From Unio delphinus (taxonomy: Eukaryota; Mollusca; Bivalvia; Unionida; Unionidae), in contig JAQISU010000170.1 in the NCBI GenBank assembly GCA_029339505.1, positions 1,452,001 to 1,516,000 on the forward strand: a DNA stretch of 64,000 nucleotides. The letters run 5' to 3'. Numbering within the stretch: the first letter of the stretch is position 1; every line of letters starts with the position of its first letter. Below, one piece after another: positions 40,234 through 64,000 of the stretch. The notes beneath the pieces were generated by a model. It did no database searches. It was not told the origin of the DNA and worked only from the letters and a program-made list of their open reading frames with translations. The translations under genes and the position numbers were made by a program.

Positions 40234-40287
40234 TTTATTCTATTTATCAGAGTCTAAATAGTGAAATCGTAAACGATTTTTCCATTT

Positions 40288-40719: not shown

Positions 40720-40732
40720 TATTATAAAAACA

Positions 40733-40747
40733 ATAGTGTTTTCAATT
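40733..40747 (-). promoter_or_regulatory. Late-type promoter motif, pVI/pX-like gene (outer)
   Basis: On minus: AATTGAAAACACTAT, 13 nt before the ATG at 40,719; same core as the other copies. Confidence 0.55.
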
Positions 40748-40752
40748 GTTAT

Positions 40753-41817
40753 TTAATCACTATGATACCCATTTGCTAACTCGTCAATGAAATCTCGATA
40801 TGTTTTGATATCCATGATACCGCCGGCAAATAACCGTCTACAGATATCAGCTGCTTCATTAATTATTTCCGGTGAATTATTTCCAGCTCGGAATCCTCCT
40901 ACAAGAACATCTAATCGTGATATATCATTGATAACACTATCAGGACAAGTGTTTCCAATCCTTGGATTTCCTAATCCACTTCCGCTATAACCAGTTGCTT
41001 CATCTAGTTTGTCTGTATCCGTGGTTTGTAAATAATCAAGAGTATCATCATCATCATCATCAGGTGGTAGTTGTTGTTTTTTTTGTCTCCGTGTTGGTGT
41101 TTGACGTCGTTCTTCTAAATCATCATCATCATCAGGTGGTAGTTGTTGTTTTTTTTGTCTTCTTGTTTGTCTACGTGTTGGTGTTTGACGTTTTAGTTCT
41201 TGCCGTTCTTCTATTTCTCGTTGTCGCTCTTCTATTTGTTCTCTTTTATAATTACTAATTCCCCTTTGAAATTCCTTGTATCCTATCTCATCCTTATTCA
41301 AACGACCAATCCCTTTATTTAGTTTATACAAATAATCGAACCAATCATTACTTGATATTCTATCATTCTTATACTCGTCCTTTAAAAAATCTTTTTTTGA
41401 ATTATAACTTTGAGCAGCAAAATTACCAAAGGCTTGATAATCCTTTGATTTCAATAATTCAAATTTTTTTATTACTATTTTAGCATGATCAGTAAATTTA
41501 TTCAACAGAGAAACAGTCGTTTTTTTCGGATCAGTTTGTTCAGTTTGTTCAGTTTTCGCTGCTAGTTTTTCAAGTACAGAAATAAGACCCTCTTCCTTTC
41601 TCTTACCGTCAGGATCATCTCCCGGTATAGCACGCTCTACCCCCTTCGTTGCTGTGGTTACTGGTTTAAACAATTCTTCAGACCCCAGAGCAAAATCAGT
41701 TTGTAAACTCTGTCGTTGTTGCAGTTTATTTCTTACAGAGTCACGAATTGGTATAAATTTCTTAATTGCATCTAGTCGCTCACGAGCCAGTCGGGTTGTT
41801 AATGCTTCATTGACCAT
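40753..41817 (-). CDS. Conserved Polinton-type protein, Gln/Arg/Asp-rich, outer copy
   Basis: 354 aa. N-terminus MVNEALTTRLARERLDAIKK and a C-terminal ~75-aa domain (ISRLDVLVGGFRAGNNS, IINEAADICRRLFAGGIMD, YRDFIDEL) are shared with the inner copy at 51,489. Between them is a low-complexity linker with two copies of a QKKQQLPPDDDDD-type repeat and many RQTPTRRQ units. The inner copy lacks this acidic repeat. First gene of the virion module. Family not recognised; possibly scaffold or packaging-related (inference). Confidence 0.65.
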   Translation of the reverse strand: MVNEALTTRLARERLDAIKKFIPIRDSVRNKLQQRQSLQTDFALGSEELFKPVTTATKGVERAIPGDDPDGKRKEEGLISVLEKLAAKTEQTEQTDPKKTTVSLLNKFTDHAKIVIKKFELLKSKDYQAFGNFAAQSYNSKKDFLKDEYKNDRISSNDWFDYLYKLNKGIGRLNKDEIGYKEFQRGISNYKREQIEERQREIEERQELKRQTPTRRQTRRQKKQQLPPDDDDDLEERRQTPTRRQKKQQLPPDDDDDDTLDYLQTTDTDKLDEATGYSGSGLGNPRIGNTCPDSVINDISRLDVLVGGFRAGNNSPEIINEAADICRRLFAGGIMDIKTYRDFIDELANGYHSD

Positions 41818-42162: not shown

Positions 42163-42163
42163 A
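42157..42163. repeat. Target site duplication, left copy (TCGGTCA)
   Basis: TCGGTCA here and at 59,311-59,317. One base at each side could belong to the TIR, so the true duplication is 5-6 bp, the size expected for Polinton integrases. Confidence 0.85.
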
Positions 42164-42358
42164 GCAGCAGAGAGGGTGAACCCTACAACCTTCCGAGCGT
42201 CGATTCGGAAATCTGAGGCTTCTGCCAAATAGTAAAAAAAATGGCGTCTATTCGATAAAATAAGATTTCCTTATATACGCCAACGTCGTTGTCATCCACC
42301 CTCTCTGCTGCTAGTGATTTCATCACTGGGTTAACAAAAATCATTTACGATTTCAACC
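42163..42358. repeat. Inner element left TIR (196 bp)
   Basis: Exact reverse complement of 59,116-59,311, with weaker similarity for about 17 more bases. Within it, 42,163-42,178 (AGCAGCAGAGAGGGTG) is repeated in inverted form at 42,297-42,312, bounding a 150-bp unit. The TIR ends inside the last codons of the ATPase gene. Confidence 0.93.
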
Positions 42359-43012
42359 AAATATTTGATCGAGTCCGATACGATATCGTGTCCGAGGATC
42401 ATGTAAATTTATTGTTACAAATCCATGCGGGGTTGACTGAGCATGACTAAAGAAATTTTTAAATTGATTGAAGTCCATATCGGAACACCATGTCTGCCAA
42501 ATATTTCGTAGCGTATGTGTATCAACGCCGTTAAACACAGCAAGAATATTACAGTTATCTCTGATCACTTTTGGAATCTGAGTGTAGCGTTGAGTGACAT
42601 ATATCACATCAGTGTTTTTGTGACGCCCCCGGGAAAATATTCTAGCTGGGTTTTTTTGATTGTCTAACATCACATCGTCGTATACGACTAAATTGTTAAT
42701 GCTCCCATCAAGGTCATCCACGGATGGCGCCTCGTCAATATCAGTTATAAAATCAATGGTATTCTCACCTTTAATTTCTGATGCATTCTCGTTAAAATCC
42801 TTTAACACTTCATAGCATCGTTGATCATCTACGCTAGGGGCAATTAAATACAACTTATCCCACTTCATCCATCTCATTATTAAATTGAGCAACAGTTGCG
42901 TTTTACCGGATCCAGATGGCCCGATTATAATTGCACGGATAGAGTTTGGTAGCGCTGCATGATGCTTAACTGGTTCTCTTATTTTAGTCGCTGAAAAATC
43001 AATTATATTCAT
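42353..43012 (-). CDS. Packaging ATPase (FtsK/HerA superfamily, A32-like)
   Basis: About 219 aa from MNIIDFSATKI (43,012). An upstream in-frame Met at 43,024 leaves only 5 bp to the divergent gene. Walker A is GPSGSGKT around residue 33, followed by LIMRWMKWDKLYLIAPS. Walker B lies in NLVVYDDVML, and FSRGRHKNTDVIYVTQRY is a typical FtsK/A32 motif. Genome-packaging ATPases of Polintons, adintoviruses and nucleocytoviruses share these. The last codons and stop lie in the TIR. The 17-bp gap to the divergent zinc-ribbon gene implies overlapping promoters. Confidence 0.9.
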   Translation of the reverse strand: MNIIDFSATKIREPVKHHAALPNSIRAIIIGPSGSGKTQLLLNLIMRWMKWDKLYLIAPSVDDQRCYEVLKDFNENASEIKGENTIDFITDIDEAPSVDDLDGSINNLVVYDDVMLDNQKNPARIFSRGRHKNTDVIYVTQRYTQIPKVIRDNCNILAVFNGVDTHTLRNIWQTWCSDMDFNQFKNFFSHAQSTPHGFVTINLHDPRTRYRIGLDQIFG

Positions 43013-43029
43013 ATCTCTATACATAAATT
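43013..43029. promoter_or_regulatory. 17-bp divergent intergenic spacer
   Basis: AT-rich spacer between the ATPase (minus) and zinc-ribbon (plus) start codons. Any promoter for either gene must extend into the opposite coding sequence. No AATTGAAAA motif here. Confidence 0.4.
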
Positions 43030-43236
43030 ATGGATCTATATTGTGTGAAGTGTAAAACGCGTACTAGCACAAATGATGTGACGACGGTTACAACTAAAAA
43101 TAACAGATCAGCACTAACTGGTAGATGTGCAACATGTGGTATAAAAAAGTTTAGATTTATTTCTACAAAATCAAAGATTTTACAATCCGGAGATGTTTTA
43201 AAAAAAAACGAGGAGGTGATATCGCAGCCAAATTGA
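43030..43236 (+). CDS. DUF5679-type zinc ribbon, likely N-terminal part of a zinc ribbon-PLA2 protein
   Basis: 68 codons. MDLYCVKCKTRTSTND...GRCATCGIKKFRF has the CxxC...CxxC spacing and the Lys-Phe-Arg ending of the DUF5679 zinc ribbon found in large DNA viruses. After a run of nine A (43,200-43,208) this frame soon stops at 43,234-43,236, while the overlapping -1 frame enters the PLA2 domain. The heptamer A AAA AAC (43,203-43,209) is in the correct frame for -1 slippage. Confidence 0.7.
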   Translation: MDLYCVKCKTRTSTNDVTTVTTKNNRSALTGRCATCGIKKFRFISTKSKILQSGDVLKKNEEVISQPN

Positions 43237-43568
43237 CAAAGCTCCCTGGAACCCCATGGGCAAAGTACCCCGGAGAAAAGCACCTTCCAGGATATAGCTA
43301 CTGTGGTCCCGGAACACGATTAGATATCAGACTTGATGATCAAAATCAACCCCGACCCGGTGAAGAACCAATAAACGCCATTGATAAGGCCTGTCACCTT
43401 CATGATGTTGCATATAAAAGCAGCAATCTGCAAAACAGGCATCTCGCGGATGTGAAATTAATTCATGCGTTAAATGCTATTCCTGATAAATCTTTTAAAG
43501 AAAAGTTGGCTTCGTGGTTGGTAAAATCAGCTATGAAAGGCAAATTGATGATGGGTGCTGGTAATTGA
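43233..43568 (+). CDS. Parvovirus-type phospholipase A2 domain (no own ATG)
   Basis: The frame shows the calcium loop YCGPGTRLD and the catalytic HD pair in DKACHLHDVAYKSS, as in secreted and parvoviral VP1 PLA2. It is preceded by LPGTPWAKYP and followed by a basic helix. There is no ATG before the catalytic site: the coordinate given begins at a TTG, and the frame stays open back to the A run at 43,200. It must therefore be expressed as a continuation of the zinc-ribbon gene, by frameshifting or because the assembled A run is one base short. In viruses such domains breach endosomal membranes. Its gene ends 18 nt before the integrase start. Confidence 0.75.
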   Translation: MTKLPGTPWAKYPGEKHLPGYSYCGPGTRLDIRLDDQNQPRPGEEPINAIDKACHLHDVAYKSSNLQNRHLADVKLIHALNAIPDKSFKEKLASWLVKSAMKGKLMMGAGN

Positions 43569-43578
43569 AAATGCTAGC
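43563..43578 (+). promoter_or_regulatory. Late-type promoter motif, integrase gene
   Basis: AATTGAAAATGCTAGC, 8 nt before the integrase ATG and overlapping the PLA2 stop codon. Confidence 0.6.
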
Positions 43579-43586
43579 ATTTTAAT

Positions 43587-44549
43587 ATGGAATCAATTTA
43601 TTATTCCCCAAGAGGATACTGGAGGGGTAAATCAGCAGTACATAAACTCGCTAGCGCTGCAAAAGTGAAAAAAACTACAGCGGCGGATTGGTTATCTAAA
43701 CAGGCACTATGGCAAATTTATCTACCACCACCTAAACAAATTCAATTCTCGCATTTTGATGTGACCGCTCCTAATGAAGTTCATCAGGCTGATATATTAT
43801 TTCTGCCACATGATCGTGGTTACAAATACGCGTTAACCGTAGTTGATATTGCAAGTCGATACAAAGAAGCAGAACCGTTAAAAACAAAATCAGCCACTGA
43901 AGTTGCTTCTGCATTTGAAAGGATTTATCGACGAGGTCCTCTGCACTGGCCGAATCTATTGCAGGTTGATCCTGGCAAGGAATTTCAGGGTGCAGTTCTA
44001 TCTACAATGAAAAATCATAATGTCACCATACGACGAGGGCATACTGCGCTACATCGCGATCAGGCCATTGTCGAACGATTTAATCGGACGATTGCTGAGC
44101 GGTTATTTGGATATCAATACGCAAAAGAATTCATTCAAGAAAAGCGATCCCGTGAATGGGTCAAAAGGTTACCAGCTGTGATTACTGCACTGAATAACGA
44201 GATTACTAGAACAATCAACATGAAACCTATCAACGCGATTAAAAAGAAGTCTATACCCGTACAACCACAAAAAGATTTCCCTAGAAACGCTAGCGTTTCC
44301 CAACCAATTCTTGGTAGTAATGTCACTGTTAGGTACTTATACGAACCAGGAGAGCTTGAAGGGGGTAGAAAAAGGGCTACTGATCCTATTTGGAGCGTCA
44401 CTACGCATAAGATATCTAGTATAACACGATCAACTGGTAGACCAGCAATCTATAAACTGGATTCAACTGCTCCTCAGCGAGGATTTACTCGACAACAACT
44501 GCAAGTGATTCCCGAGGATACTCAATTGCCACCGCATGGTCTTAATTAG
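43587..44549 (+). CDS. Polinton-type (retrovirus-like) DDE integrase
   Basis: 320 aa. The N-terminal YYSPRGYWRGKSAVHKLAS and DWLSKQALWQIYLPPP match the Polinton integrase N-domain, with no canonical HHCC zinc finger seen. Catalytic core: first Asp in HQADILFLP (about residue 68), second Asp in LLQVDPGKEF, Glu in QAIVERFNRTIAERL with 34 residues between the last two. A C-terminal SH3/chromo-like segment (VTVRYLYEPGE...PAIYKLDS) follows. It would cut and join element ends to give the 5-6-bp duplication seen here. It converges on the replicase gene and overlaps it by 8 bp. Confidence 0.92.
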   Translation: MESIYYSPRGYWRGKSAVHKLASAAKVKKTTAADWLSKQALWQIYLPPPKQIQFSHFDVTAPNEVHQADILFLPHDRGYKYALTVVDIASRYKEAEPLKTKSATEVASAFERIYRRGPLHWPNLLQVDPGKEFQGAVLSTMKNHNVTIRRGHTALHRDQAIVERFNRTIAERLFGYQYAKEFIQEKRSREWVKRLPAVITALNNEITRTINMKPINAIKKKSIPVQPQKDFPRNASVSQPILGSNVTVRYLYEPGELEGGRKRATDPIWSVTTHKISSITRSTGRPAIYKLDSTAPQRGFTRQQLQVIPEDTQLPPHGLN

Positions 44550-47500
44550 CACCCGATGCCAGAGGCATTGTGCTTTCACCCCGGCGTCTATTGCACTCAA
44601 GACAAGTCAACATCACATTATTTCTGACATGACCGAGATTGTTATTTTTTCTGTCTACGGTGAATTGGCGAGGATCCTTATCCGAATACTGCCAACGCAT
44701 TATACAATTGCAACTCGCGCAGTGATTATTCTGTTGTTTCTTCAAAGTGATTATTAATTTAGCATCAATATCAAATTCTCGTTGTTTTTTTTTGTCCTGT
44801 TGTTTGTAACCGGAGAGTTTTTTATTAATGATGCTAACATCAATATCACTTATTGTTGTGTCATTATCATCACCAATGATTTCATCATCGCCACCTGACT
44901 CTGTCATGACGACAATTCTTCGAAGCTGATTTATTCTTCGTACTCTGGATACTGCGAGATAGACTAAATTCGACCATTCGATGCGATTATCTACCATCCA
45001 AACAATTGTATCCGATATAGTCAATCCCTGTGAAGAGTGTATTGTTGCTGCGTATCCTAGCGTCCATGGGGATTTATTAGCACGCAATGCATCTTCAACG
45101 ACATTGATATCAACCAGCACAATATCATTTAACACGAGAATCTGCTTTTCACTTCCTGACTTTGTCAGGCTTGGAATATCAACTTCTATATTCTGCTTTC
45201 GTGTATCCGAAGGCCTATAACACAACGGTACTGGAAGCGTTGCAAATTTTTCTTTATGCAATTCAAATAACTTCATCTGAAGTGTGTCTCTGACTATTTT
45301 TCTACTTGCTACTATCAAATCATTTGGTCTCCACGTTTCCCAGAAATCATTCATAGGAGTTTCTGAAATTATTTCACGCGCTATTTCGCATTGGATTTTA
45401 TCCGGTTGTAATCTAAGCAGTGCTTTGAACTCGCGTAATTGTTCATCAAGTGATCTATGGTCGGTATTAATTTCTTCATAATAGTCTACAGAACCCTTTA
45501 GCCATTCATGTGGAGATCCACCGACAAATGGTGGTGGTTGGCCGTGATCCCCGCACATGACGACTTTTGTGTTTTTGTTTAACAACCACTCAAGAAATGT
45601 TTTTAATACATCTAATGACACTGTGCATATTTCATCCCAAATTATGATTTCAGGAATGAATTTATCACCCATACGCTCAGGAGTCCATTTGTCACCTTTC
45701 CATCGAAAAAAACTATGATAAGTACAGGCATTTACCCCTCGCTGTATCATCTCTCTGGCGAGTCTGTGAGTCGGTGTTAACACAATCATGTTAGTAGGAA
45801 TACAAGTATTTCCACCACCACGATATAATTCAATTGCACGAGTTGTCTTTCCTGACCCACCACAACCGTTTAAATAAACTGTCTTGTATCTACATATTGG
45901 ATCAGATACCGGTGGTGCATTAGAAAATTCTGATTGAATCTCATCACATTTTAAGTACTTTTCATCCATGGCAACGTCTGCGGATTCACAATACTCATGT
46001 AGCATCTCCTTTTTAAATCGCCAACGCCCCCACGCTTCCTCCGGATCTGTGAATGCCGCTACAGCTGATTTGTACTTATTGTGTATATACATCGAATCAG
46101 TGGCTACTCTAACCGCGGTATTAGGAAATCTATTTATCATCGAAAATAAATTGATAGAAGCATAAGCTAGCATTGAACTTCTCAAATGTGTGTACTGGGA
46201 ATTATATCCATCACAGTAGGTAACAACCGTACCTAATTTCTCACCATTGGATAGAAAAGCATCCTTACGGGATACAAGTTTTCCCTGTTTCGTTAAATCC
46301 GTTACAAGAAAATCGTATTCAGCGACATCTATGATCAACCGCGAAGAGTATTTTGCGTTGTCGTATCGTCCACCCTGGGTAAATTTACCGATTATTCTTC
46401 GTCCAAAATCTTTTGCTTGTTCTTTTTTAATTTCAAATAACTTCTTAGACCAATTCATGATTTGTTCTTCTGGAAACTGTTTTCGTAGTTCGTTGATTAT
46501 TCTATCTAGATCGGGTTGTGGTAGCCAAACTTCTTTTTGAGCTCGATAGCATATAATAGCTTCGGAAACAATCAACGATATCAGCATGCCACAATCAATC
46601 ATATATCTCAATAGCACTATTGGCATCCAGTGTTTTTCAGATAGGTGTCTACCGAGCCAAACATAACTACACGGATGTAACCCTGTAGCGAGTTCAAATG
46701 ATATCACACGAGCGAATCCGGTTAAATCAAAATCAGGCAATGGTCCATTAATCGCAACACGAGTCATTTCATGCGTGGGGTGTCCAAATCGTTTGAAGTA
46801 CTCAGCGCATTCCCCATACCCGAGAAAACTTCCAGGATAACACGCGGATATATCAATTGAAATCATACCGTCACGATGGTATTTTGTATTCCACAGTCCT
46901 CCATGACCAAATTCGATGCAACTCAATTTAACGTCCTCGAGAAAATCACTTCGTGTTGGACGCCATGAGTTTTTTTCTCTTGCGAAGTGAGCTACCACTG
47001 ATGGAATAGTAAAACTATCCGTGAGTAGTTTTTCATGGAAACTCTCCGGTGAAAAATCACTAGCGATTTTTCTCATTCTGTTATCTAATTCTTCAACGCG
47101 ATATAATTCACCATTTGGTCTTACAAATTGATCAAATCCTGATTCGGAACCAGCACTACTAAGTAACCACACTGACACAGGATCATCTTTACACAACGCA
47201 TGAATAGCATCAAATAATTTCTCTTCATAGAAAACATCCCCGGAAAATTCCCCGGAAAATTTCCGGGGGATATATTTCACGGTTCGTTCTCGTGGAAATA
47301 CTGTTACCGCAGGTGTCCACGCGTGTTTGTTATGATCAATAATCTGTATTGGGGCTCCATTTTTGTTATATTTCGGTTCGTATAAAACCTCTCCGGTTAT
47401 CGTCATAACTGTTATTGGAAATCTTAATAATGTTTCTAATTTAGCTATATCAGAAATCTTTGCACCGTGCTGTTTCACTGTCAGTTCCCATTCTGTTATT

Positions 47501-47613
47501 TTCCTACGTCGCAAATCAGTTAGTTTATTTCCTCGGGATGCATTTGTGAAGTGTTCCATTACCCGTGTTGCTACACAATTGAGCCTTGACGAAGTCAATG
47601 GTGAATATTTCAT
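44542..47613 (-). CDS. Replicase, main part: divergent family-B polymerase, SF1 helicase and HNH (inner copy)
   Basis: 1023 aa in this frame. Polymerase palm motif A-like SIDISACYPGSF (about 253-262), a possible motif B RRIIGKFTQGG (about 405), motif C VRVATDSMYI (about 501-510; the first Asp of DTD is Ala, the second kept) after LAYASINLFSMI. SF1 helicase: Walker A GCGGSGKTTRA (about 583), TPTHRLARE (Ia), IIIWDEI (II), CGDHGQPPPF (III), TIHSSQGLTI and VYLAVSRVRR (V/VI). C-terminal HNH with CASC...DRKNNNLGH...CLECN. The upstream part of the protein continues in another frame (47,745-48,479) past a one-base break. Unlike canonical Polinton PolB, helicase and polymerase are fused. Confidence 0.82.
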   Translation of the reverse strand: MKYSPLTSSRLNCVATRVMEHFTNASRGNKLTDLRRRKITEWELTVKQHGAKISDIAKLETLLRFPITVMTITGEVLYEPKYNKNGAPIQIIDHNKHAWTPAVTVFPRERTVKYIPRKFSGEFSGDVFYEEKLFDAIHALCKDDPVSVWLLSSAGSESGFDQFVRPNGELYRVEELDNRMRKIASDFSPESFHEKLLTDSFTIPSVVAHFAREKNSWRPTRSDFLEDVKLSCIEFGHGGLWNTKYHRDGMISIDISACYPGSFLGYGECAEYFKRFGHPTHEMTRVAINGPLPDFDLTGFARVISFELATGLHPCSYVWLGRHLSEKHWMPIVLLRYMIDCGMLISLIVSEAIICYRAQKEVWLPQPDLDRIINELRKQFPEEQIMNWSKKLFEIKKEQAKDFGRRIIGKFTQGGRYDNAKYSSRLIIDVAEYDFLVTDLTKQGKLVSRKDAFLSNGEKLGTVVTYCDGYNSQYTHLRSSMLAYASINLFSMINRFPNTAVRVATDSMYIHNKYKSAVAAFTDPEEAWGRWRFKKEMLHEYCESADVAMDEKYLKCDEIQSEFSNAPPVSDPICRYKTVYLNGCGGSGKTTRAIELYRGGGNTCIPTNMIVLTPTHRLAREMIQRGVNACTYHSFFRWKGDKWTPERMGDKFIPEIIIWDEICTVSLDVLKTFLEWLLNKNTKVVMCGDHGQPPPFVGGSPHEWLKGSVDYYEEINTDHRSLDEQLREFKALLRLQPDKIQCEIAREIISETPMNDFWETWRPNDLIVASRKIVRDTLQMKLFELHKEKFATLPVPLCYRPSDTRKQNIEVDIPSLTKSGSEKQILVLNDIVLVDINVVEDALRANKSPWTLGYAATIHSSQGLTISDTIVWMVDNRIEWSNLVYLAVSRVRRINQLRRIVVMTESGGDDEIIGDDNDTTISDIDVSIINKKLSGYKQQDKKKQREFDIDAKLIITLKKQQNNHCASCNCIMRWQYSDKDPRQFTVDRKNNNLGHVRNNVMLTCLECNRRRGESTMPLASGAN

Positions 47614-47744
47614 AGGAGCTAGTTTTGCAATATCGGGTTTATCATTTAACGGATATATCCCATAAACGATTGCTGTTACGGGATAAGATCTCTCGTAGTA
47701 TGGTTTGTCAATTCCAGTTAGAATTCCTGGTTTGGAATCTCTAC

Positions 47745-48479
47745 TTACAATGACAGCTTTTTATTCTTGAGGATTGGTTCAAATTTATCCCTAATAATCC
47801 ATTTGCCTTCGACTTCGATAATGAATTTTATTCTGAAAAAATACTTCTGATTGGAATTGCTTTGCTTGAAATCCTTTGGATTTCCACCTTTGGATGAAAA
47901 TCCCTTGGATTTTACACCAAGATGTGAAATTATCTCAGCTGCTCTTTTATCGTTCATAGTAGCATCGATGATGGGTACATTGACATCTTCATCAATAATT
48001 CGAAATGTCGACCAACAGTATGCTGCACCGTCTCGGTAGAATTCATTAAAACACTCCCTGATTTTACCGAGTATAGTTCTATCACCGATTAGACGTTTTG
48101 GTGTATCAGAGACTCTATCAAGATTGAATTTAGTATTTCTCCAAGGCTTAATTTTCGATAATCTTTGGAACTCCCTATCAAGATTGAATTTAGTATTTTT
48201 CCAAGGCTTAATTTTCGATAATCTTTGGAACTCCCTATCAAGATTGAATTTAGTATTTTTCCAAGGTTTGATTTTCGATAATCTTTGGAACTCCCTATCA
48301 AGATTGAATTTAGTATTTTTCCAAGGTTTGATTTTCGATAATCTTTGGAACTCCCTATCAAGATTGAATTTAGTATTTTTCCAAGGTTTGATTTTCGATA
48401 ATCTTTGGAACTCCCTATCAAGATTGAATTTAGTATTTTTCCAAGGCTTAATTTTCGATAATCTCTTGAACTCCTCCAT
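47745..48479 (-). CDS. Replicase N-terminal part with 20-aa repeats (inner copy, ends at a frame break)
   Basis: Start MEEFKRLSKIKPW at 48,479 matches the outer copy's MKEFKRL. Six tandem 20-aa units (EFQRLSKIKPWKNTKFNLDR) occupy about residues 2-120. A conserved domain follows (IRECFNEFYRDGAAYCWSTF ... WIIRDKFEPIL). The frame ends at 47,745 because the inner copy has one base fewer than the outer copy in an A-rich run near 47,758-47,763. The next frame continues directly into the polymerase. No 3'-5' exonuclease motif recognised. Role of the repeats unknown. Confidence 0.75.
   Translation of the reverse strand: MEEFKRLSKIKPWKNTKFNLDREFQRLSKIKPWKNTKFNLDREFQRLSKIKPWKNTKFNLDREFQRLSKIKPWKNTKFNLDREFQRLSKIKPWKNTKFNLDREFQRLSKIKPWRNTKFNLDRVSDTPKRLIGDRTILGKIRECFNEFYRDGAAYCWSTFRIIDEDVNVPIIDATMNDKRAAEIISHLGVKSKGFSSKGGNPKDFKQSNSNQKYFFRIKFIIEVEGKWIIRDKFEPILKNKKLSL
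48112..48475. repeat. 60-bp in-frame tandem repeat, six copies
   Basis: Units start TCAAGATTGAATTTAGTATT on the + strand every 60 bp (48,118, 48,178, ... 48,418) with only scattered substitutions (CTTA/TTTG). They open artificial frames on both strands. Confidence 0.9.
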
Positions 48480-48521
48480 GTTATAATTAAAACAAGTATT
48501 TAAATAGAAAAATATAGTATA
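48480..48521. promoter_or_regulatory. Bidirectional early-type promoter region (inner)
   Basis: A 42-bp AT-rich spacer between the replicase (minus) and zinc-finger gene (plus), containing TATTTAAATAG and TATAGTATA. The outer copy has an equivalent 42-bp spacer at 60,600-60,641. It lacks the AATTGAAAA late motif. Confidence 0.5.
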
Positions 48522-48848
48522 ATGAATCACTGCAAGTGGCTAATGATTGGATCTACAACCCCGTGTAACAAATCATGCAGAAGCGAATTCTGTGGGTATC
48601 ATATGCAAAGCGTGAGAAACGGTTCAAAAGGCCCTCTCGCATGCCTCCAATGTGGGGTGGGTGTTAGAGGAAAATCGCAATTATGCCTTGCTTGTGGGGG
48701 TAAACGATACAGGGAACTAAAACGCTACTATGACAAACGAATCATTGACTCCGTCATCCTTGATAAAATCAAGGACAAAGTAATAAAAACCCCTCAAGAT
48801 TATATCCAGAGATTTATAATTAAAGCAGATAATAAATTAGACAAGTAG
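48522..48848 (+). CDS. Small zinc-finger protein, inner copy
   Basis: 108 aa. MNHCKWLMIG...PCNKSC...FCGYHMQSV...CLQCGVGVRGKSQLCLACGGKRYRELKRYY: ten Cys and two His in CxxC-like clusters over the first 60 residues, then a basic/acidic helical tail. Conserved in the outer copy (60,222-60,599). Not a family I can name. Divergent from the replicase and upstream of HNH, so possibly an early regulator or DNA-binding protein (inference). Confidence 0.7.
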   Translation: MNHCKWLMIGSTTPCNKSCRSEFCGYHMQSVRNGSKGPLACLQCGVGVRGKSQLCLACGGKRYRELKRYYDKRIIDSVILDKIKDKVIKTPQDYIQRFIIKADNKLDK

Positions 48849-48861
48849 TATTATTATACAA

Positions 48862-49362
48862 ATGAGCCAAGATTTCAGACCTCACCCAGTGCTTGCTAAT
48901 TACGAAGCCTCTAGTGATGGTGTTGTCAGGCACCGCAGACTCAAAGAACCTGTTGGGTATCTGAATAATATGGGCTATTTGATGTTTTCAGCTGGGAGGA
49001 AGAAGTATCTCTGTCACAGAGCCATCTATGAAGCATTTTACGTATTAATCGAAGACGGTCTTGTGATTGATCACATAAATGGCGTGAAGACTGATAATTG
49101 TCTTGGGAATCTTCAAGCCGTCTCGCAGCGCGATAACCTTTTAAAAAGCAACGCTGGTAAGCACGCGAAACATCCCAAGGGTGTGAAATCGTTTGATTTA
49201 GAAAATAATGAAGAGAGAAGCTTTCAGTCGATAAATGCGGCTGGAAAATATTTCGATATTTGCAGTACTTCCATTCGATTTGTTGCTGAAAAAATCATTA
49301 AAACATCTCTGTCTAAAAAAAATGGTCATAAAATAAAGTTCGTATACACTGAAACTATTTAA
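48862..49362 (+). CDS. NUMOD4-HNH-NUMOD1 homing-type endonuclease, inner copy
   Basis: 166 aa. N-terminal NUMOD4-like segment (YEASSDGVVRHRRLKE), HNH_3 core (LCHRAIYEAFY ... VIDHINGVKTDNCLGNLQAV ... QRDN), and C-terminal NUMOD1-like DNA-binding helix (FQSINAAGKYFDICSTSIR). Such genes spread among phages and large DNA viruses as homing endonucleases. Here the copy sits in the same place in both elements, so it has been domesticated or inherited vertically. It starts 13 bp after the zinc-finger stop. Confidence 0.88.
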   Translation: MSQDFRPHPVLANYEASSDGVVRHRRLKEPVGYLNNMGYLMFSAGRKKYLCHRAIYEAFYVLIEDGLVIDHINGVKTDNCLGNLQAVSQRDNLLKSNAGKHAKHPKGVKSFDLENNEERSFQSINAAGKYFDICSTSIRFVAEKIIKTSLSKKNGHKIKFVYTETI

Positions 49363-49946
49363 GGGAGATAAATCCTTTATGGATAAATCCGCACTACAAT
49401 TCACACCCTACCTACTAAGTTCCCTTGTATTATGACGTCAAAGGAATTTGTCGCCTGCTATATTACCTGTACTTGACTAGGTGCGCCCACGTGACTGTAA
49501 TGGAGATATAATGCATGAGTTTTCGATAGAGAATAAAACTTTTTATTGTCACTTGTGGGCTAAAACTGCATTATTAGTTTTATTTATCTACATATCTCAT
49601 GTGTGGGGTGGGTGGACTAGCAGTAAAGCAGACAGCTAACTCGTTCTTTTCAGTACAGACGTTCTTTATAATCCACGCATTACCTATGTTCGCTCAGCCG
49701 GAACGCGAGTGTTTCCTATTCATTGAAGTATGTGGGCGTGGTTAAAATTCCTTGTATGTGAATGTATTTTATCTAGAGAATTATAACAGAGTATATAAAA
49801 CGCTGTTTTATTAAACAACTGTATTATTTTGTTTAAAATATTTCTCATTGTTGCAGCATAAAATTGTCTATTTTAAAAATCTCTTATTGTTAAGTATATC
49901 AGATATATATATATATATATTAAAAAATCTCTATTCTGTATGACTA

Positions 49947-50025
49947 GTCCGTGGTGTAATGGTATCGTGTTTGTCTTGTAAACATAGCTATCAACTACTA
50001 CGTGTTCGGTCCCCATAGCAGACAC
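49947..50025 (+). other. tRNA-like sequence (pol III boxes), not a functional tRNA
   Basis: An A-box TGGTGTAATGG, an anticodon-loop-like CTTGTAA (would read Thr) and a B-box-like GTTCGGTCCC occur in order. The acceptor and T stems do not pair, so it is a tRNA pseudogene or SINE head. Confidence 0.3.
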
Positions 50026-50098
50026 ATTATTTGATGGCGAAACGGAAGATGTTTTTTTCTATTAATTGGGGGGGGGGGGATGGGGCGGTCCCCCTCAG

Positions 50099-50209
50099 CC
50101 AAACCAACATGGCAACCCATGCTATCGCATTCTCGGTAGCGTGGGTTGGTGTTTTTTTCCAACTCATGCAACCATGAATGAGATTTCATGGGTTGCCATG
50201 TTGGTTTGG
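50099..50209. repeat. 23-bp perfect inverted repeat with 65-bp spacer (foldback)
   Basis: Arms 50,099-50,121 and 50,187-50,209 (core CCAACATGGCAACCCATG and its complement) are perfectly complementary. Could be a MITE or structured RNA. No target duplication seen. Confidence 0.75.
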
Positions 50210-50223
50210 TTTACCACGCCCAC

Positions 50224-50418
50224 ATCATACCATCATCGTTCCATTGAATTATAATCCATCCTTAATTAAGTATATGTTATGCCTAAAATTTGCCGCAACA
50301 CTCGAGCGGAAATATATCATACCATCATCGTTCCATTGAATTATAATCCATCCTTAATTAAGTTAATTAAGTATATGTTATGCCTAAAATTTGCCGCAAC
50401 ACTCGAGCGGAAATATAT
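50224..50418. repeat. ~95-bp direct duplication
   Basis: Two copies, starting at 50,224 and 50,316, of a unit containing CATCGTTCCATTGAATTATA and GCCGCAACACTCGAGCGG. The second has an extra TTAATTAAG. Near-identity means that it is recent. Confidence 0.85.
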
Positions 50419-50664
50419 GGCATTGTGCCGTCCATGTTGTGACGTTATACCTCAAGCATATCTTCTGGGCGGTCTAAGATGGCGTTTGCCACCTTAGGCC
50501 TCCCTTCCGGAGATGTATGTTTCGGGTCCCCCCTTGGGCTTACTTGGATGCGAAGGCACCCAAGGAATTCCAAAGATGTGTTGTCATATATGTTTTATTT
50601 TTATTAATTAGAGATACAGTATACTATATTTATAAATAAATTTATTTATATAAAAATATAAATA

Positions 50665-51021
50665 ATGGATATCAATGATGTAAATGCTATAATTGCTGAA
50701 ATCTCAAATTTAAATAATAAAGGGGTATTATTATCTGAAAGTCTCGACGTTGACAAGATTACCTCGGAATATGAAGATATTGAATATCTGTCTAGTAAGG
50801 GTCGTTATGTTTTACCTAGGATGTACAGGCTCGTGAAAGGAATTCAAAAATCCATTAATGGTTGTTTGTACGGTAACGACATTAATTTATTTATAACGCT
50901 ATTTAGCACCGTTGAAGCAATACGTCAAAAGCTTGGCCAAGAATATCAAAAACGAGCTGAAATTGGTTCTAAAGTTCGTGATCTTAGAAAAATGTTAAAC
51001 GAGGAGCGACCCGTATCTTAA
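50665..51021 (+). CDS. Small conserved element protein, inner copy
   Basis: 118 aa, MDINDVNAIIAEISNLNNKG ..., with helical, mixed-charge sequence and a C-terminal coiled-coil-like RQKLGQEYQKRAEIGSKVRDL. Clear homologue of the outer copy at 59,319-59,675 (IVEIAKLKN, DIEYGVSTNKYMLPKKYALIKKIQ). Family not recognised. Confidence 0.65.
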   Translation: MDINDVNAIIAEISNLNNKGVLLSESLDVDKITSEYEDIEYLSSKGRYVLPRMYRLVKGIQKSINGCLYGNDINLFITLFSTVEAIRQKLGQEYQKRAEIGSKVRDLRKMLNEERPVS

Positions 51022-51116
51022 CCACGTGAGTGTTACTAAAAAATAATATAGGCTTTCGTAAATAATTTAAATAATTTATTTATTTATTTTTTTTTAGCGT
51101 TTTTTTGTAACACTTG

Positions 51117-51395
51117 TTACATAGGATTTTCTCCTGAAAGGATACTCATCAGTTTGGACTTGCTCATGCAGTTATGTGCATAATGGATGATCTGGTCGTA
51201 GTAGCAAGTAATCACCGCGACGCCTCCATTTTCACGTAATTGTTCTTGTTGCCGCGTCGTTAACACAAATCGTTCATCGCCATTCTCAGATATTACAATT
51301 CTGAAATCCCCAGCGATGTTATTTCTGAAACACTCGCGAATAGCGTCGTACAGTTTAACCCTGTCGAAGATGAATACGTTAGCTTGATGGTACAT
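51117..51395 (-). CDS. 92-aa protein of unknown function, inner copy only
   Basis: MYHQANVFIFDRVKLYDAIR, then ECFRNNIAGDFRIVISENGDE and a C-terminal YYDQIIHYAHNC. Lies antisense between the small conserved gene and the virion module. No counterpart in the 340-bp equivalent region of the outer copy. The DAIRECF segment faintly resembles IRECFNEF in the replicase N-terminal domain. Unnamed. Confidence 0.5.
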   Translation of the reverse strand: MYHQANVFIFDRVKLYDAIRECFRNNIAGDFRIVISENGDERFVLTTRQQEQLRENGGVAVITCYYDQIIHYAHNCMSKSKLMSILSGENPM

Positions 51396-51488
51396 TATTT
51401 AATAACTAAGTTATTTAATAACTAAGCTTTTAATTATGATGGAAACCCTCCGGATTTCACATTTGAAAATTTAGTTCACAAACAATAT

Positions 51489-52541: not shown

Positions 52542-52546
52542 CCACT

Positions 52547-52563
52547 AATTGAAAAACTACTAG
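52547..52563 (+). promoter_or_regulatory. Late-type promoter motif, pVI/pX-like gene (inner)
   Basis: AATTGAAAAACTACTAG, 12 nt before the ATG at 52,576. Two extra bases lie between the AATTGAAAA and CTAG halves. Confidence 0.55.
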
Positions 52564-53114: not shown

Positions 53115-54539
53115 ATGTTTAAACGAACAGCTGATCCCGCGCTTGATATGGAAGCCCCAATGCGAAAAGATGATTCCGTCCGCGATTATCAATACTATTC
53201 CTATCATGCAATACAACCCGACCTACGATCGCGAGTTGAACTTCAAGTTCAAGATACAAGTAAATACTTTTTGCCGTGTGAAGCATTTATCGAAATCGAA
53301 GGAAAACTCGTAACAAATGTTGCAGAGGATACCCCATATGCAGATGACCCAAATATCCGAGTTGGGTTCGTTAACAATGGCATAATGGCGTTATTTGAAA
53401 GTGCAAGATATCTCATTGATGGAAAAGAAATTGAATCAATAGAACGCGAGGTTGATGTTGCAACAACAATAATCGGACTAGCAAGATATTCCGATGATTA
53501 TACAAGATCGGCTGGTCCGTCTATGATGTTTGCAAAGGATACTACTGATAACGCTGACCACATTCAATACATTAAAGTGTTAACACCGCAAGACACTTCA
53601 GTTGATAATCAACGAGAAGCAACTAATCCAGAACGTCGAGCTAGACCCGGAGCTGCGTTTGATATTCTCGGAGGCGTTAATGGTAATTTCAATCTAGGGT
53701 TTGCAACACGAAAATTAGCATTGGAAGGACAAGAGAAAAAGTTTTCGTGTGCAATTCCACTCCATCACATATTTGGATTCTGCAGAAATGTCAGAAAAGT
53801 CATCTATGGAGCCAAACACACAATCGCGTTAGTGCGAAAAGGCAATGACAACGATGCAATTTGGCGTACTGGTGCCGCTGAGGGTAAAGTTAAAATAACT
53901 AAATTGGTATTGTGGATGCCAGTAATGACCCCATCAATTACCAGAGAAGAGCGGCTACTCTCATTTATGGAAACAGGTGGCAAATCATTGCTAAGTTGGC
54001 TAACAACAACGACTGATGTCAAACAGGATAATGTCGATGATATATTCACATGGCACCTGGCATCAAAACAAGGCGTTTCAGCTCCACGTCATATATTTAT
54101 AGCGTTACAGAATAATGAGCGAGTTGGTAATCAACAACGCAGCCATATGATATTTGATCAGTTAGGTGTTAGAGAAGTCTCGCTGAGAATAAACGGACAA
54201 CAAGAACCAACCGAGGATATACAACTTAATTACACAGAAAATCATATAGCACGTGTATATCATCGGATGCTGTCATATATGGGTCGTGATCAAAACGTTG
54301 ATACTGGTTTGCAAATATCTCAACTCGATTTTAAGAAATTGTATCCGATTTATTACTTTTCGCTGGAACATCTTGATTTAATGAGACAATCCGTTGTTGA
54401 CATACATTTTAGGGCTCGTATAGCTCCTGGTGGTGTTAATTATAGAGCGGTTGCTGTCATTCTCAGCGACAAATCAATGTTGTTAGAAGGGGTTGGCGGA
54501 CGAATGAGACTTGTTGATGCACCAGTGGAAAATCTGTAA
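53115..54539 (+). CDS. Major capsid protein (double jelly roll), inner copy
   Basis: 474 aa. DTSKYFLPCEAFIEIEGKL, VGFVNNGIMALFESARYLID, IIGLARYSDDYTRSAGPSM, and YPIYYFSLEHLDLMRQSVVD are shared with the outer copy almost unchanged. Residues about 147-195 (KDTTDNADHIQ to GGVNGNFNLG) are replaced by a different, longer loop. Full length, no break. The ATG is preceded by the consensus late motif. Confidence 0.9.
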   Translation: MFKRTADPALDMEAPMRKDDSVRDYQYYSYHAIQPDLRSRVELQVQDTSKYFLPCEAFIEIEGKLVTNVAEDTPYADDPNIRVGFVNNGIMALFESARYLIDGKEIESIEREVDVATTIIGLARYSDDYTRSAGPSMMFAKDTTDNADHIQYIKVLTPQDTSVDNQREATNPERRARPGAAFDILGGVNGNFNLGFATRKLALEGQEKKFSCAIPLHHIFGFCRNVRKVIYGAKHTIALVRKGNDNDAIWRTGAAEGKVKITKLVLWMPVMTPSITREERLLSFMETGGKSLLSWLTTTTDVKQDNVDDIFTWHLASKQGVSAPRHIFIALQNNERVGNQQRSHMIFDQLGVREVSLRINGQQEPTEDIQLNYTENHIARVYHRMLSYMGRDQNVDTGLQISQLDFKKLYPIYYFSLEHLDLMRQSVVDIHFRARIAPGGVNYRAVAVILSDKSMLLEGVGGRMRLVDAPVENL

Positions 54540-54597: not shown

Positions 54598-55095
54598 ATG
54601 TTTTACAATAAAATGCCATATAGTGTTGTTAGTGTCAAGCTGACTGATGGTCAGGTCAAGAAATTAAAATCAAAATCCGCTAAGGAATGTGGAACAACAA
54701 TAACGTTAAAACCAGCGCAGATGTCCGGAGGTACACATAAAATATCATTAACGGATCGTCAAATAAAACATTTCAATGATGCAATGAAAAATAAGCGAGG
54801 AGTTCAAATAGAATTTTCGAAAGCCGCAGTCGCCAACATGATAAAATCAGGTGGTATATTTCCATTGTTAGCCGCAATACCAGCATTGATTGCAGCGGCT
54901 GCCCCAGCGGTGGCGAAGGCGGCAGCGTTGGGAGCCGTTGGTACCGCGGCAGGGATGGCGTTGAAAAAGGCAACTGGGAAAGGATATAAAAAAAAGGGAA
55001 AGGGGTTGTACCTACCAGGAACCCCGTATTCATGGTACAGCGGGAAATCCGTGAACGGATCGGGTCTAAGAAGAATACCAGGAACGGTTTATTAA
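54598..55095 (+). CDS. Hydrophobic Ala-rich virion precursor-like protein, inner copy
   Basis: The likely start is MFYNKMPYS (54,598) or the MPYSVVSVKL Met (54,613), which aligns with the outer copy. An earlier in-frame ATG at 54,547 precedes the promoter motif and is unlikely. MSGG|T (adenain consensus), then IFPLLAAIPALIAAAAPAVA, a KKKGKG patch and terminal LPGTPYSWYSG...IPGTVY. Intact here, whereas the outer copy has a one-base insertion. Confidence 0.7.
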   Translation: MFYNKMPYSVVSVKLTDGQVKKLKSKSAKECGTTITLKPAQMSGGTHKISLTDRQIKHFNDAMKNKRGVQIEFSKAAVANMIKSGGIFPLLAAIPALIAAAAPAVAKAAALGAVGTAAGMALKKATGKGYKKKGKGLYLPGTPYSWYSGKSVNGSGLRRIPGTVY

Positions 55096-55109
55096 TTGAA
55101 AAATCTTCG
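55094..55109 (+). promoter_or_regulatory. Late-type motif variant, protease gene (inner)
   Basis: AATTGAAAAATCTTCG, overlapping the preceding stop codon and 12 nt before the candidate ATG at 55,122. The outer copy has AATTCAGAAATCTTCG here. Confidence 0.45.
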
Positions 55110-55121
55110 ATTTCCGAACCT

Positions 55122-55586
55122 ATGGTTGAGGAACCTATGGTTCCTATGTCCAATTTTGATTTAATTGATGCTGCTAAAAAACTAGCGATTAAAAATTTCA
55201 GAGGTGTTTTTATGAGAGATCAATTACCGAGAAAACCAAATAACGTTGAAACCGGTATCATCAATCTTGATAACAGCAGCGGATCGGGAACTCACTGGGT
55301 TGCATACGCGATTGATCCACGTGGGATTGTCTATTTCGATTCATATGGGTTAGCTCCGCCAAGCGAGTTTATGCGGTATATAAATTCCTCGATGAAACTC
55401 AAAGGGTTTCCGATTTTTTATTCCACGCTGCCAACACAACAATTAAATGATCCACCGATATGCGGCCGTGAAGTATTAAATGTCCTCGCGGAGATTTCAT
55501 TAAAATCCTTTGGATCTCCGTGGAAACCACCTCATATTATTGTAAACGAATACACGAGTGGGAAATTACAAGGATCAATAAATTGA
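55122..55586 (+). CDS. Adenain-type cysteine protease, inner copy
   Basis: About 154 aa from MVEEPMVPMSNF. An in-frame Met at 55,032 lies inside the preceding gene and ahead of the promoter motif. His in SGTHWVAYAIDPRG, Asp in VYFDSYGLAPP, Gln in TLPTQQL and Cys in DPPICGREVLNVL form the adenain-like active site. No frame break. Confidence 0.88.
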   Translation: MVEEPMVPMSNFDLIDAAKKLAIKNFRGVFMRDQLPRKPNNVETGIINLDNSSGSGTHWVAYAIDPRGIVYFDSYGLAPPSEFMRYINSSMKLKGFPIFYSTLPTQQLNDPPICGREVLNVLAEISLKSFGSPWKPPHIIVNEYTSGKLQGSIN

Positions 55587-59061: not shown

Positions 59062-59115
59062 AAATCTTCGATTTTCAACAAAGGATTTTCGTCCTAAAGA
59101 CTCGATCAAATTTTC

Positions 59116-59311
59116 GGTTGAAATCGTAAATGATTTTTGTTAACCCAGTGATGAAATCACTAGCAGCAGAGAGGGTGGATGACAACGACGTTGGCGTATA
59201 TAAGGAAATCTTATTTTATCGAATAGACGCCATTTTTTTTACTATTTGGCAGAAGCCTCAGATTTCCGAATCGACGCTCGGAAGGTTGTAGGGTTCACCC
59301 TCTCTGCTGCT
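59116..59311. repeat. Inner element right TIR (196 bp)
   Basis: Perfect reverse complement of 42,163-42,358, ending CTGCTGCT. Similarity continues weakly inward to about 59,099 (GACTCGATCAAAT), which corresponds to the last ATPase codons at the other end. Confidence 0.93.
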
Positions 59312-60641: not shown

Positions 60642-61072
60642 ATGAAGGAGTTCAAGAGATTGACTTCGAAAAATGCTAAATTCAATGCTGATAGAGAGTT
60701 CAAGAGATTATTGAAAATCAATCCTAGATTTAATCTCGATAGACCAAAAAAACGTCAAAAACGTCCAAGAGACGGAAACATGAAGGAGTTTAAGAGATTA
60801 TTAAAAATCAATCCTAGATTTAATCTCGATAGACCCCAAAAACGTCCAATAGACGGAAACAAACGTAACAAACGCCCAAGAGACGGAAACATGAAAGAGT
60901 TTAAGAGATTATTGAAAATTAACCCTAAATTTAATATCGATAAACCCAAAAAACGTCCAAAACGCCCAATAGACGGAAACATGAAAGAGTTTAAGAGATT
61001 ATTGAAAATCAATCCTAGATTTAATCGCGATAGACCCAAAAAACGTAACAAACGTCCAAGAGACGGAAACAT
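60642..61072 (+). repeat. Coding tandem repeat in replicase N-terminus (outer)
   Basis: Four main units of about 90-120 bp, each containing ATGAAGGAGTTTAAGAGATT or a variant and ending CGTCCAAGAGACGGAAAC. Units differ in the number of Lys/Arg-rich KRNKRP inserts. Confidence 0.85.
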
Positions 61073-64000
61073 GAGATCATCATGGAAGGATGCTCAATTC
61101 AATCTTGATATAGTTTCTAATACACCCAAGAATAAAATTCTTGATAAACCCATCAGAGACTGTTTTAATGAATTCAAGCGTGATGGAGCATCTTATTGTT
61201 GGTCAACATTTCGAATTGATGGTGTTGTTGACGCTACCATGAATGATGAAAAGGCAGCAGTGATCATTTCACGTGTTGGGGAAAAAAGTCATTTTTTCCG
61301 AATCAAATTCATTATCCGTGAGAATGGCAAATGGATTATTAAGGATAAATTTGAACCCATTCTCAAGGGCAAAAAAACTGTCACCGTGAATCAGGATTCC
61401 AAACCGGGAATTTTGACTGGAATTGATAAACCCTACTACGAAAGATCTTATCCTGTCACAGCAGTTGTTTACGGGATCTATCCGCTCAATGAAAAACCTG
61501 ATATTTCAAAACTAGCACCCATGAAATATTCGACAGGGCTAAATTGTGTAGCAGAACGAATAATAGAACACTTCACAAATGCGTCCCGGGGAAATAAACT
61601 CACTGATCTAAGACGAAAAAAAATAACCGAGTGGGAGTTCACGGTAAAAGAGCATGGAGCAACAATTCAGGATATAACTAAATTAGAAAAATCATTAAGA
61701 TTTCCAATATCGGTAAGGACAATCACCGGAGAAGTATTATACGAATCGAAATATAAATCACAGGGAGCCCCCATTGAAATTATTGATCATAACGCGCACG
61801 CGTGGTCATCTGCAGTAACAATATTCCCACGGGAAAGAACCGTAAAATATCTATCCCAAACCGAAGAGTTTTTTTCAGAGCAGAAATTATTTGATGCTAT
61901 TTACCATTTGAGTAAAAACGATCCTGTGTCAGCGTGGCTATTTCATAGTAATTCAGACGAAGAATGTAGATTTGATCAGTTTGTAAGGCCCAACGGAGAA
62001 TTATACCGTACTGAAGAACTGCAGAATCAAATGAAACAACTAGCTAGTGAGTTTTCTGGGGACGGAGAAGACAACGATCAATTATTAGCAAACTGTTTCA
62101 CAGTACCATCCATTGCAGCACATTTTGCTAGAAAGAAAAACGCGTGGAAACCAACACGAAGTGAGTTTTTATCAGATGTCAAATTGTCCTGTCTTGAATA
62201 CAGCCACGGCGGATTATGGAACACAAAATACACCGCTGATACCGTTATTTCAGTTGATATGATTGCGTGTTATCCAGGAAGTTTTCTTGGGTATGGAGAA
62301 TGCGAGAAATATTTCAAACGATTTGGACACCCTACACACGAAATGACCCGTGTTGCTATTAATGGACCACTTCCTGATTTTGATTTAACCGGATTCGCTT
62401 GTGTGGTATCATTTGAAATGGCTGAAGGACTTCATCCGTGTAGTTATCTTTGGATTGGTAAACACATGTCTGAAAAACACTGGATGCCAATAGTGTTACT
62501 ACGGTATATGCTTGATTGTAAGATGTTAAAATCATTAATTGTCAGTGAAGCAATTATATCCTATCGGGCACAGAAATCAGTCTGGTTACCACAACCTGAT
62601 CTAGAAAAAATAATTAGCGAAGAGCGAAAACTGTTTCCTGATTTTAATGAACAACAAATCATGGATTGGTCCAGACAGTTATTTGAAATCAGAAACAATG
62701 AAGCAAAAAATCTTGGACGAAGAATAATCGGTAAATTTACCCAAGGTGGTAAAGATGATAATACGAAATATTCTTCACGATTGATTATAGACAACGCTGA
62801 ATACGATTTTGTAATGGCGGATTTAACGAATAAGGGCCTATATGTCAATCGTAAGGACGCATTTATGTCCGATGGAACCAAATTGGGTACAATTGTTACC
62901 TACAATGATGGATACCATCCGCAGTACACACATTTGAGAGCTTCTATGCTTGGTTATGCTTCTATCAATCTGTTTTCAATGATCAATAGATTTCCTACCA
63001 CCGCAGTTAGAGTTGCTACTGACTCATTTTACATAAATAGCAAAATGGCTGATTTTAAGGCTACTGGCAACGAGAAATGGGGATCATGGAGAATTAAGAA
63101 AGAAATGATTCATGATTATATTCCATCAGCAGATGTTACCATTGAAAATAATTACTTAGAAAGCAATCAGTGTTCAGAATTTTCTAGTGCACCACCGATT
63201 TCTGATCCAATATGCCTGTATAAAACAGTTTATTTAAACGGCTGTGGTGGGTCAGGAAAAACAACCCGGGCAATTGAGTTATTTCGTGTTTCCGATCCAA
63301 ACATGATTGTGCTAACACCAACTCATAGACTTGCAAGAGAAATGATACAGAGAGGGGTAAATGCTTGCACTTATCACAGCTTTTTCCGATGGAAGGGAGA
63401 TAAATGGACTCCTGAGCGCATGGGAGAGAAATTTATTCCTGAAATAATCATTTGGGATGAAATAGACACAGTGTCAGAAGATGTCTTAAAAATATTTCTT
63501 GAGTGGTTGTTATTGAAGAATACAAAAGTCGTCATGTGCGGTGATCACGGCCAACCACCACCATTTGTCGGTGCATCTCCCCATGAATGGCTAAAGGGTT
63601 TTGTAGACTATTATGAAGAAATTGATACCGATCATAGATCACTTGATAATGAATTAAAAGAATTGAAGAAACTAATTAGATTACAACCGGATAGAATCCA
63701 GTGTGAAATAACCCGTGAAATAATTTCGGAAACTCCCATGAATGAGTTTTGGGAATTGTGGAGACCAAACGATTTAATCATTGCAAGTAGAAAAATAGTC
63801 AGGGACACACTTCAGATGAAGTTATTTGAATTGCATAAACAAAAATTTGCAACACTTCCAGTGCCTCTTTGTTATAGACCATCGGATACGCGAAAACAGA
63901 ACATCGAAGTTGATATTCCAGGCCTGACAGAGTCAAGGCGTGAAAAGCAGAGTCTCGTATTAAATGATATTGTGCTGGTTGATATCAATGTTGTTGAAGA
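60642..64000 (+). CDS. Replicase (repeat domain, family-B-like polymerase, SF1 helicase), outer copy, cut by window edge
   Basis: Open from MKEFKRLTS (60,642) to the window end, at least 1119 codons, with no break found. N-terminal repeats: units around MKEFKRLLKINPRFNLDRP followed by (P)KKRPKRP(R/I)DGN. Conserved FNEFKRDGASYCWSTF domain next, then motif A-like VISVDMIACYPGSF, motif C-like RVATDSFYI, Walker A GCGGSGKTTRA, Walker B IIIWDEI, GDHGQPPPF. The polymerase part aligns with the inner copy throughout, showing that the inner frame break near 47,760 is secondary. The C-terminal helicase motifs and HNH should lie beyond the window. Confidence 0.85.
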   Translation, partial: MKEFKRLTSKNAKFNADREFKRLLKINPRFNLDRPKKRQKRPRDGNMKEFKRLLKINPRFNLDRPQKRPIDGNKRNKRPRDGNMKEFKRLLKINPKFNIDKPKKRPKRPIDGNMKEFKRLLKINPRFNRDRPKKRNKRPRDGNMRSSWKDAQFNLDIVSNTPKNKILDKPIRDCFNEFKRDGASYCWSTFRIDGVVDATMNDEKAAVIISRVGEKSHFFRIKFIIRENGKWIIKDKFEPILKGKKTVTVNQDSKPGILTGIDKPYYERSYPVTAVVYGIYPLNEKPDISKLAPMKYSTGLNCVAERIIEHFTNASRGNKLTDLRRKKITEWEFTVKEHGATIQDITKLEKSLRFPISVRTITGEVLYESKYKSQGAPIEIIDHNAHAWSSAVTIFPRERTVKYLSQTEEFFSEQKLFDAIYHLSKNDPVSAWLFHSNSDEECRFDQFVRPNGELYRTEELQNQMKQLASEFSGDGEDNDQLLANCFTVPSIAAHFARKKNAWKPTRSEFLSDVKLSCLEYSHGGLWNTKYTADTVISVDMIACYPGSFLGYGECEKYFKRFGHPTHEMTRVAINGPLPDFDLTGFACVVSFEMAEGLHPCSYLWIGKHMSEKHWMPIVLLRYMLDCKMLKSLIVSEAIISYRAQKSVWLPQPDLEKIISEERKLFPDFNEQQIMDWSRQLFEIRNNEAKNLGRRIIGKFTQGGKDDNTKYSSRLIIDNAEYDFVMADLTNKGLYVNRKDAFMSDGTKLGTIVTYNDGYHPQYTHLRASMLGYASINLFSMINRFPTTAVRVATDSFYINSKMADFKATGNEKWGSWRIKKEMIHDYIPSADVTIENNYLESNQCSEFSSAPPISDPICLYKTVYLNGCGGSGKTTRAIELFRVSDPNMIVLTPTHRLAREMIQRGVNACTYHSFFRWKGDKWTPERMGEKFIPEIIIWDEIDTVSEDVLKIFLEWLLLKNTKVVMCGDHGQPPPFVGASPHEWLKGFVDYYEEIDTDHRSLDNELKELKKLIRLQPDRIQCEITREIISETPMNEFWELWRPNDLIIASRKIVRDTLQMKLFELHKQKFATLPVPLCYRPSDTRKQNIEVDIPGLTESRREKQSLVLNDIVLVDINVVE

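Follow-up and report, generated by a model that had tools for sequence, protein, structure and literature searches.

A probable pPolB-S1H replicase with a C-terminal HNH domain in a nested Polinton of the bivalve Unio delphinus

Described polymerase-helicase fusions and the locus in Unio delphinus

The replicase considered here belongs to the inner of two related Polinton-type elements of one family, one Polinton sitting inside the other, in a 64,000-nucleotide stretch of Unio delphinus DNA (the window; assembly GCA_029339505.1, contig JAQISU010000170.1, positions 1,452,001 to 1,516,000). Its closest described counterparts are the Tlr1-like helicases of the Tlr1 element of Tetrahymena, of Polinton-like viruses (PLVs) and of transpovirons. 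Reportedly, Krupovic et al. 2016 is the founding paper of this family, and a proposal that its palm is catalytically dead is said to date from that year. According to the passages of a 2024 preprint used here (PMC11071308), these proteins have a variable N-terminal part and the order terminal protein (TP), vOTU protease, palm of a protein-primed family B polymerase (pPolB) and superfamily 1 (SF1) helicase (S1H), and they are protein-primed. The same passages state that the exonuclease was lost and that the first Asp of motif C is lost, as in mavirus, without concluding inactivity; in fact, the proteins are predicted to be active polymerases. Moreover, a C-terminal GIY-YIG or HNH domain occurs in members from different PLVs, and is read there as intein invasion.

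With the Tlr1-like helicases, as portrayed in that source, the replicase of the inner Polinton shares an N-terminal extension with a putative vOTU, a palm without exonuclease, an S1H following the palm, a motif C without its first Asp and, as in some members, a C-terminal HNH, while an rve integrase is found both in the Tlr1 element and in the inner Polinton. Kinship is putative and goes by features (palm, helicase, motif C and missing exonuclease and, more weakly, the two N-terminal domains). In contrast to the published members described there, the relatives of this replicase are in molluscs and Glomeromycotina, its Polinton has a phospholipase A2 (PLA2) gene, N-terminal repeats are present and the HNH is widespread. 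The TP fold, likely of little-finger/PAD (LF/PAD) type here, is reported as such for TvV-S1, with other folds in Tlr1 and others.

The canonical pPolB of Polintons and adintoviruses likewise has a protein-primed palm with an N-terminal TP and vOTU (PMC11071308, in the passages used), and the element type is the same, with terminal inverted repeats (TIRs), rve integrase, double jelly-roll (DJR) capsid protein and A32 ATPase; here, however, the exonuclease is missing and a helicase and HNH are fused downstream. The endogenous PLV OmPLV of Oxyrrhis marina also has an SF1 helicase-pPolB fusion, but with the helicase N-terminal and the exonuclease retained, and its authors judged it an independent fusion (PMC12721341, in part). 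Among cryptophyte PLVs, SF1 helicases are also fused to a homing-type nuclease, and the gene of one cluster adjoins an rve integrase, as here, though the HNH is on the N-terminal side and the C-terminal nuclease is a GIY-YIG; pPolB genes of mollusc Polintons are mentioned in the same source (PMC12220804, in part). HelPol (Buck et al., PMC11071296, in part) is likewise an unusual polymerase, found in linear DNA viruses of medium size; in contrast to the palm found here, its remote similarity is described as being to cellular PolBc/Pol delta.

The polymerase palm and the region upstream of it

The gene product is very probably a pPolB-S1H fusion that serves an integrated Polinton-type virus as its replicase, with the order repeats, TP, vOTU protease, protein-primed PolB palm, SF1 helicase and HNH, and with protein-primed replication. 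This is based on the fold modelled for the palm, the family of the helicase, the HNH motif, a domain order conserved among relatives, and a surrounding Polinton with its TIRs, integrase, ATPase and capsid protein. Its parts, and the homologous gene of the outer element, are as follows.

44542..47613, minus strand: replicase open reading frame (ORF) of the inner element, 1023 aa, with vOTU-like region, palm, SF1 helicase and HNH
47745..48530, minus strand: upstream ORF in another frame, with six 20-aa repeats and the beginning of the terminal-protein-like N-terminal domain
48115..48474, minus strand: tandem array with 6.0 copies of a 60-nt unit at 97% matches, in which one protein motif is matched six times
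47278..47613, minus strand: vOTU-like region, from the model of the outer copy (weak matches) and residue conservation
45934..47091, minus strand: protein-primed PolB palm region as modelled (motif A at nt 46860-46831, B at 46395-46369, C at 46110-46087)
44899..45921, minus strand: SF1 (Pif1/RecD/Dda-like) helicase domain, approximate borders
44560..44832, minus strand: C-terminal four-Cys HNH domain, approximate borders, from endonuclease VII/HNH profiles and conservation
60642..63998, plus strand: homologous replicase of the outer element, running off the window end, a single frame holding repeats, TP-like and vOTU-like parts, the palm and the greater part of the helicase

The original prediction, drawn from the DNA letters alone, had proposed a polymerase-helicase-HNH fusion in one protein, and the 1023-aa ORF bears this out, with its palm model and its matches to HNH and Pif1/RecD/Dda-like helicase profiles, the latter in line with the SF1 Pif1/RecD-like helicase that had been named. 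Around motifs A and C, where a palm-like region had been suspected, structure prediction gives a palm that, as modelled, is of the protein-primed PolB type; the absence of a palm is excluded, and a chance occurrence of motifs was ruled out by the same model. Neither Pfam nor PHROGs profiles recognise this palm, and its identity to phi29 polymerase in structural alignments is just 12-15%, both of which could be taken to indicate a quite different replicase that resembles protein-primed PolB in its motifs only. The structural comparisons and the motif evidence largely refute this, and we give it hardly any credence.

Motif conservation was followed in an alignment of 61 rows, made up of the two window copies, 58 of 120 relatives that were picked by their coverage, and a second entry of the palm piece. 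The motif A Asp is invariant where a letter is present (56/56 rows), as are the motif B Lys and the second motif C Asp (61/61 each), while the first motif C Asp, correctly noted as lost at the outset, is found in none of the 61 rows (57 Ala, 2 Val, 1 Thr, 1 Pro). This loss would suit a catalytically dead palm serving as a scaffold only, in a helicase-nuclease that leaves the copying of DNA to a polymerase of the host or of a helper. The other invariant residues argue against such a palm, as do the polymerases, including that of mavirus, that the cited part of PMC11071308 lists as active despite lacking that Asp. Here, the inner and outer replicases (76% identity over 821 aligned codons) gave dN/dS values by NG86 of 0.18 for the palm, near the 0.14 of the helicase, which speaks of past constraint and not of activity, and 0.20 for the vOTU region, with dS of 0.5-1.1; YN00 gave 0.13 for the helicase and 0.10 for the vOTU region. 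A dead palm would also need an outside enzyme, as the fusion is the sole polymerase found in the inner element. In that element, 16 ORFs out of the 22 that reach 100 aa were scanned with Pfam (the other six overlap scanned ORFs in other frames) and no PolB family was detected; the fusion stands in the place of the stand-alone canonical pPolB that marks Polintons in the narrow sense. Pfam misses the fusion palm too, so that a divergent PolB could escape it. As regards the outer element, where an additional canonical pPolB had been considered at the start, the replicase beginning at 60642 is of the same type as far as it is seen (to 64000). On balance, we regard a dead palm as improbable.

In the pPolB-S1H reading, the absence of an exonuclease, also anticipated, is supported by a lack of room between the vOTU-like region and the palm (in P0001, the vOTU His motif is at residues 91-99 and the palm model starts at 175; no separate exonuclease profile was run). 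By contrast, the original prediction had recognised no terminal-protein region, and this has to be revised. Upstream of the palm, weak structural matches to the LF/PAD fold and to OTU folds agree with the TP-vOTU-PALM-S1H order published for Tlr1-like helicases (PMC11071308, in the part cited), and with that order and a palm of protein-primed type, the suggested different replication strategy finds no support. In the vOTU-like region, the candidate catalytic residues are a conserved Cys (LNCVA, nt 47583-47569) and a conserved His (IIDHNKHAW, nt 47343-47317), though the OTU fold match, from the model of the outer copy, is weak. Upstream of it, the weak LF/PAD match of the model suggests an LF/PAD-like TP at the N-terminus. 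Weighing against this picture, Foldseek with the N-terminal model returned no PDB match with E <= 0.001, and the candidate priming Tyr, in an (A/S)YPV motif, is missing in the fungal rows.

At the TIR ends, a hydroxyl residue of the N-terminal domain would prime synthesis, the (A/S)YPV Tyr being the candidate outside the fungal members, and the vOTU may then cut the primer domain off the polymerase. DNA would be synthesised by the palm, which lacks an exonuclease domain, with the helicase clearing the way, and the HNH might trim or resolve branched or terminal replication DNA.

The N-terminal repeats that had been placed in the same protein do exist, as six near-identical 20-aa units upstream. 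However, a single reading frame with the rest holds for the outer copy, which carries repeats of its own, and not for the inner one, in which the frame differs between the repeat ORF and the main ORF, with a switch near 47.75 kb that may be due to mutation, an intron or sequencing error. As the motif occurs once in the relative P0002, the inner repeats look like a local expansion.

Relatives, helicase and the C-terminal HNH

Protein searches yielded 91 and 90 relatives with E <= 0.001 (from 7644 and 7981 candidates scored), named ones being from Elysia crispata, E. marginata and Sinanodonta woodiana (two fragments, 469 and 561 aa), and fungal ones from Rhizophagus, Gigaspora, Diversispora, Racocetra and Cetraspora. 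Three more are labelled as a Thiodiazotropha metagenome-assembled genome, and are perhaps clam host DNA. In two scans of IMG/VR viral contigs, from which entries close to the genome of the window may be missing, no relative was confirmed, and tblastn against phages returned pieces over the helicase and HNH, one beginning before the helicase at residue 544. A quick tree of 105 of 122 rows (17 with <60% of the palm left out; SH-aLRT support only) grouped both window copies with P0002-P0005 and a long-branched Sinanodonta protein (support 100). A branch with support 100 also set the 19 fungal rows, together with an unnamed one, apart from the others, and the three Elysia rows fell elsewhere.

The SF1 helicase lies C-terminal to the palm within one protein, and the full fusion, which the original prediction had proposed to look for in other genomes, is indeed found there. 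Among the 60 alignment rows without the duplicate, 39 have vOTU, palm, S1H and HNH together, four have palm, S1H and HNH, and 17 have <60% of the HNH. In the HNH, Cys965, Cys968, Cys1004 and Asn999 are conserved in 44/44 rows with a letter, Cys1007 in 43/43, His995 in 43/44 and Asn1008 in 41/43.

Alternatively, the HNH could be a homing endonuclease or an intein remnant on the replicase gene, with no role in replication. Pointing that way are the intein reading of C-terminal GIY-YIG/HNH domains in Tlr1-like helicases (PMC11071308, passages cited), a separate homing-type gene nearby that matches HNH_3/NUMOD1 (48862-49362), and P0005, which has 96% of the helicase and ends just before the HNH, where its contig may be cut. 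Conversely, the HNH sits at the C-terminal end with hardly any residues behind it, its key residues are conserved, and its presence in the window, Elysia (slug) and fungal lineages speaks against a recent insertion. Moreover, the 17 HNH-poor rows stop or break before or inside the HNH, and at least 95% of the helicase is present in just two of them, P0005 and P0047, the latter ending inside the HNH. We consider a selfish HNH unlikely, though less so than a dead palm. Tentatively, and with the odds still somewhat against it, an animal and Glomeromycotina Polinton lineage may have replaced the canonical polymerase by a TP-vOTU-palm-S1H-HNH protein, with the HNH a fixed replication nuclease (e.g. 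for branched or hairpin TIR intermediates). This would be a one-protein replisome of primer, protease, polymerase, helicase and nuclease.

Homing-type HNH genes, distinct from the replicase HNH, are seen in both elements (48862-49362 and, alike by eye, 59720-60211), each adjoining a gene for a small Cys-rich protein.

The nested Polintons and what the fusion means

The inner Polinton (42163-59311, 17.1 kb) starts with AGCAGC, ends with GCTGCT and is flanked on either side by CGGTC (5 bp), so that the TIRs and short target-site duplication of a Polinton/Maverick are present; Polinton target-site duplications are usually 6 bp. Its other features are listed below, and the matches of the integrase, ATPase and capsid protein are all above the curated Pfam cut-offs.

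42163..42375, plus strand: left TIR, inverted pair of 213 nt, 99% alike, with termini and 5-bp flanking repeat
59099..59311, minus strand: right TIR, partner of the left (213 nt, 99%)
42353..43024, minus strand: A32-like packaging ATPase (PF04665, E 2.7e-11)
43233-43568: PLA2-like protein between ATPase and integrase (PF08398, E 2.6e-12)
43587..44549, plus strand: rve integrase, adjoining the replicase (PF00665, E 1.5e-8)
53115..54539, plus strand: DJR major capsid protein (PF21738, E 4.6e-20)
55032..55586, plus strand: adenain-like protease, weak match (PF00770, E 0.011, 15.8 bits, cut-off 21.3)

The PLA2-like protein brings to mind the PLA2 domain that parvoviruses have in their capsid proteins. 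The inner capsid protein shares 92% identity with a JGI metagenome protein, and its named relatives are from Sinanodonta and Potamilus; the source may be circulating virus or mussel DNA. The outer element has its structural genes at 34911-41817 (minus strand), and accessory genes and replicase from 59319 past the window end. Circular permutation of the two elements, considered as the gene orders of the blocks looked permuted, was dropped, the TIR pair at 42163/59311 indicating a Polinton within a related Polinton. An outer-element gene contains a 93-nt tandem repeat (3.1 copies, 37353-37640), and its inner counterpart (55520-57037) has other repeats (55988-56424); the product, we guess, could be a variable fibre-like protein. 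To the left of the elements, LINE-type reverse-transcriptase-like ORF fragments were seen by eye (5460-5879 and 27901-28341).

No published account of this fusion in molluscs or Glomeromycotina was found in the literature covered, outside which most subscription journals lie. Within that literature, the architecture was already published from protist viruses and transpovirons, and the novelty most likely lies in the hosts and in how widely the HNH has been retained. The pPolB-S1H replicase is thereby extended to a mollusc Polinton, with relatives in sea slugs and fungi, and such elements are accordingly not definable by a stand-alone pPolB. The fusion escapes scans with PolB profiles, as it did here with Pfam and PHROGs, and this may be the reason why some elements have been reported to lack a detectable polymerase (Bellas et al.). 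Moreover, with an HNH kept for so long, it becomes testable whether the nuclease at the C-terminus is a selfish element or takes part in replication.
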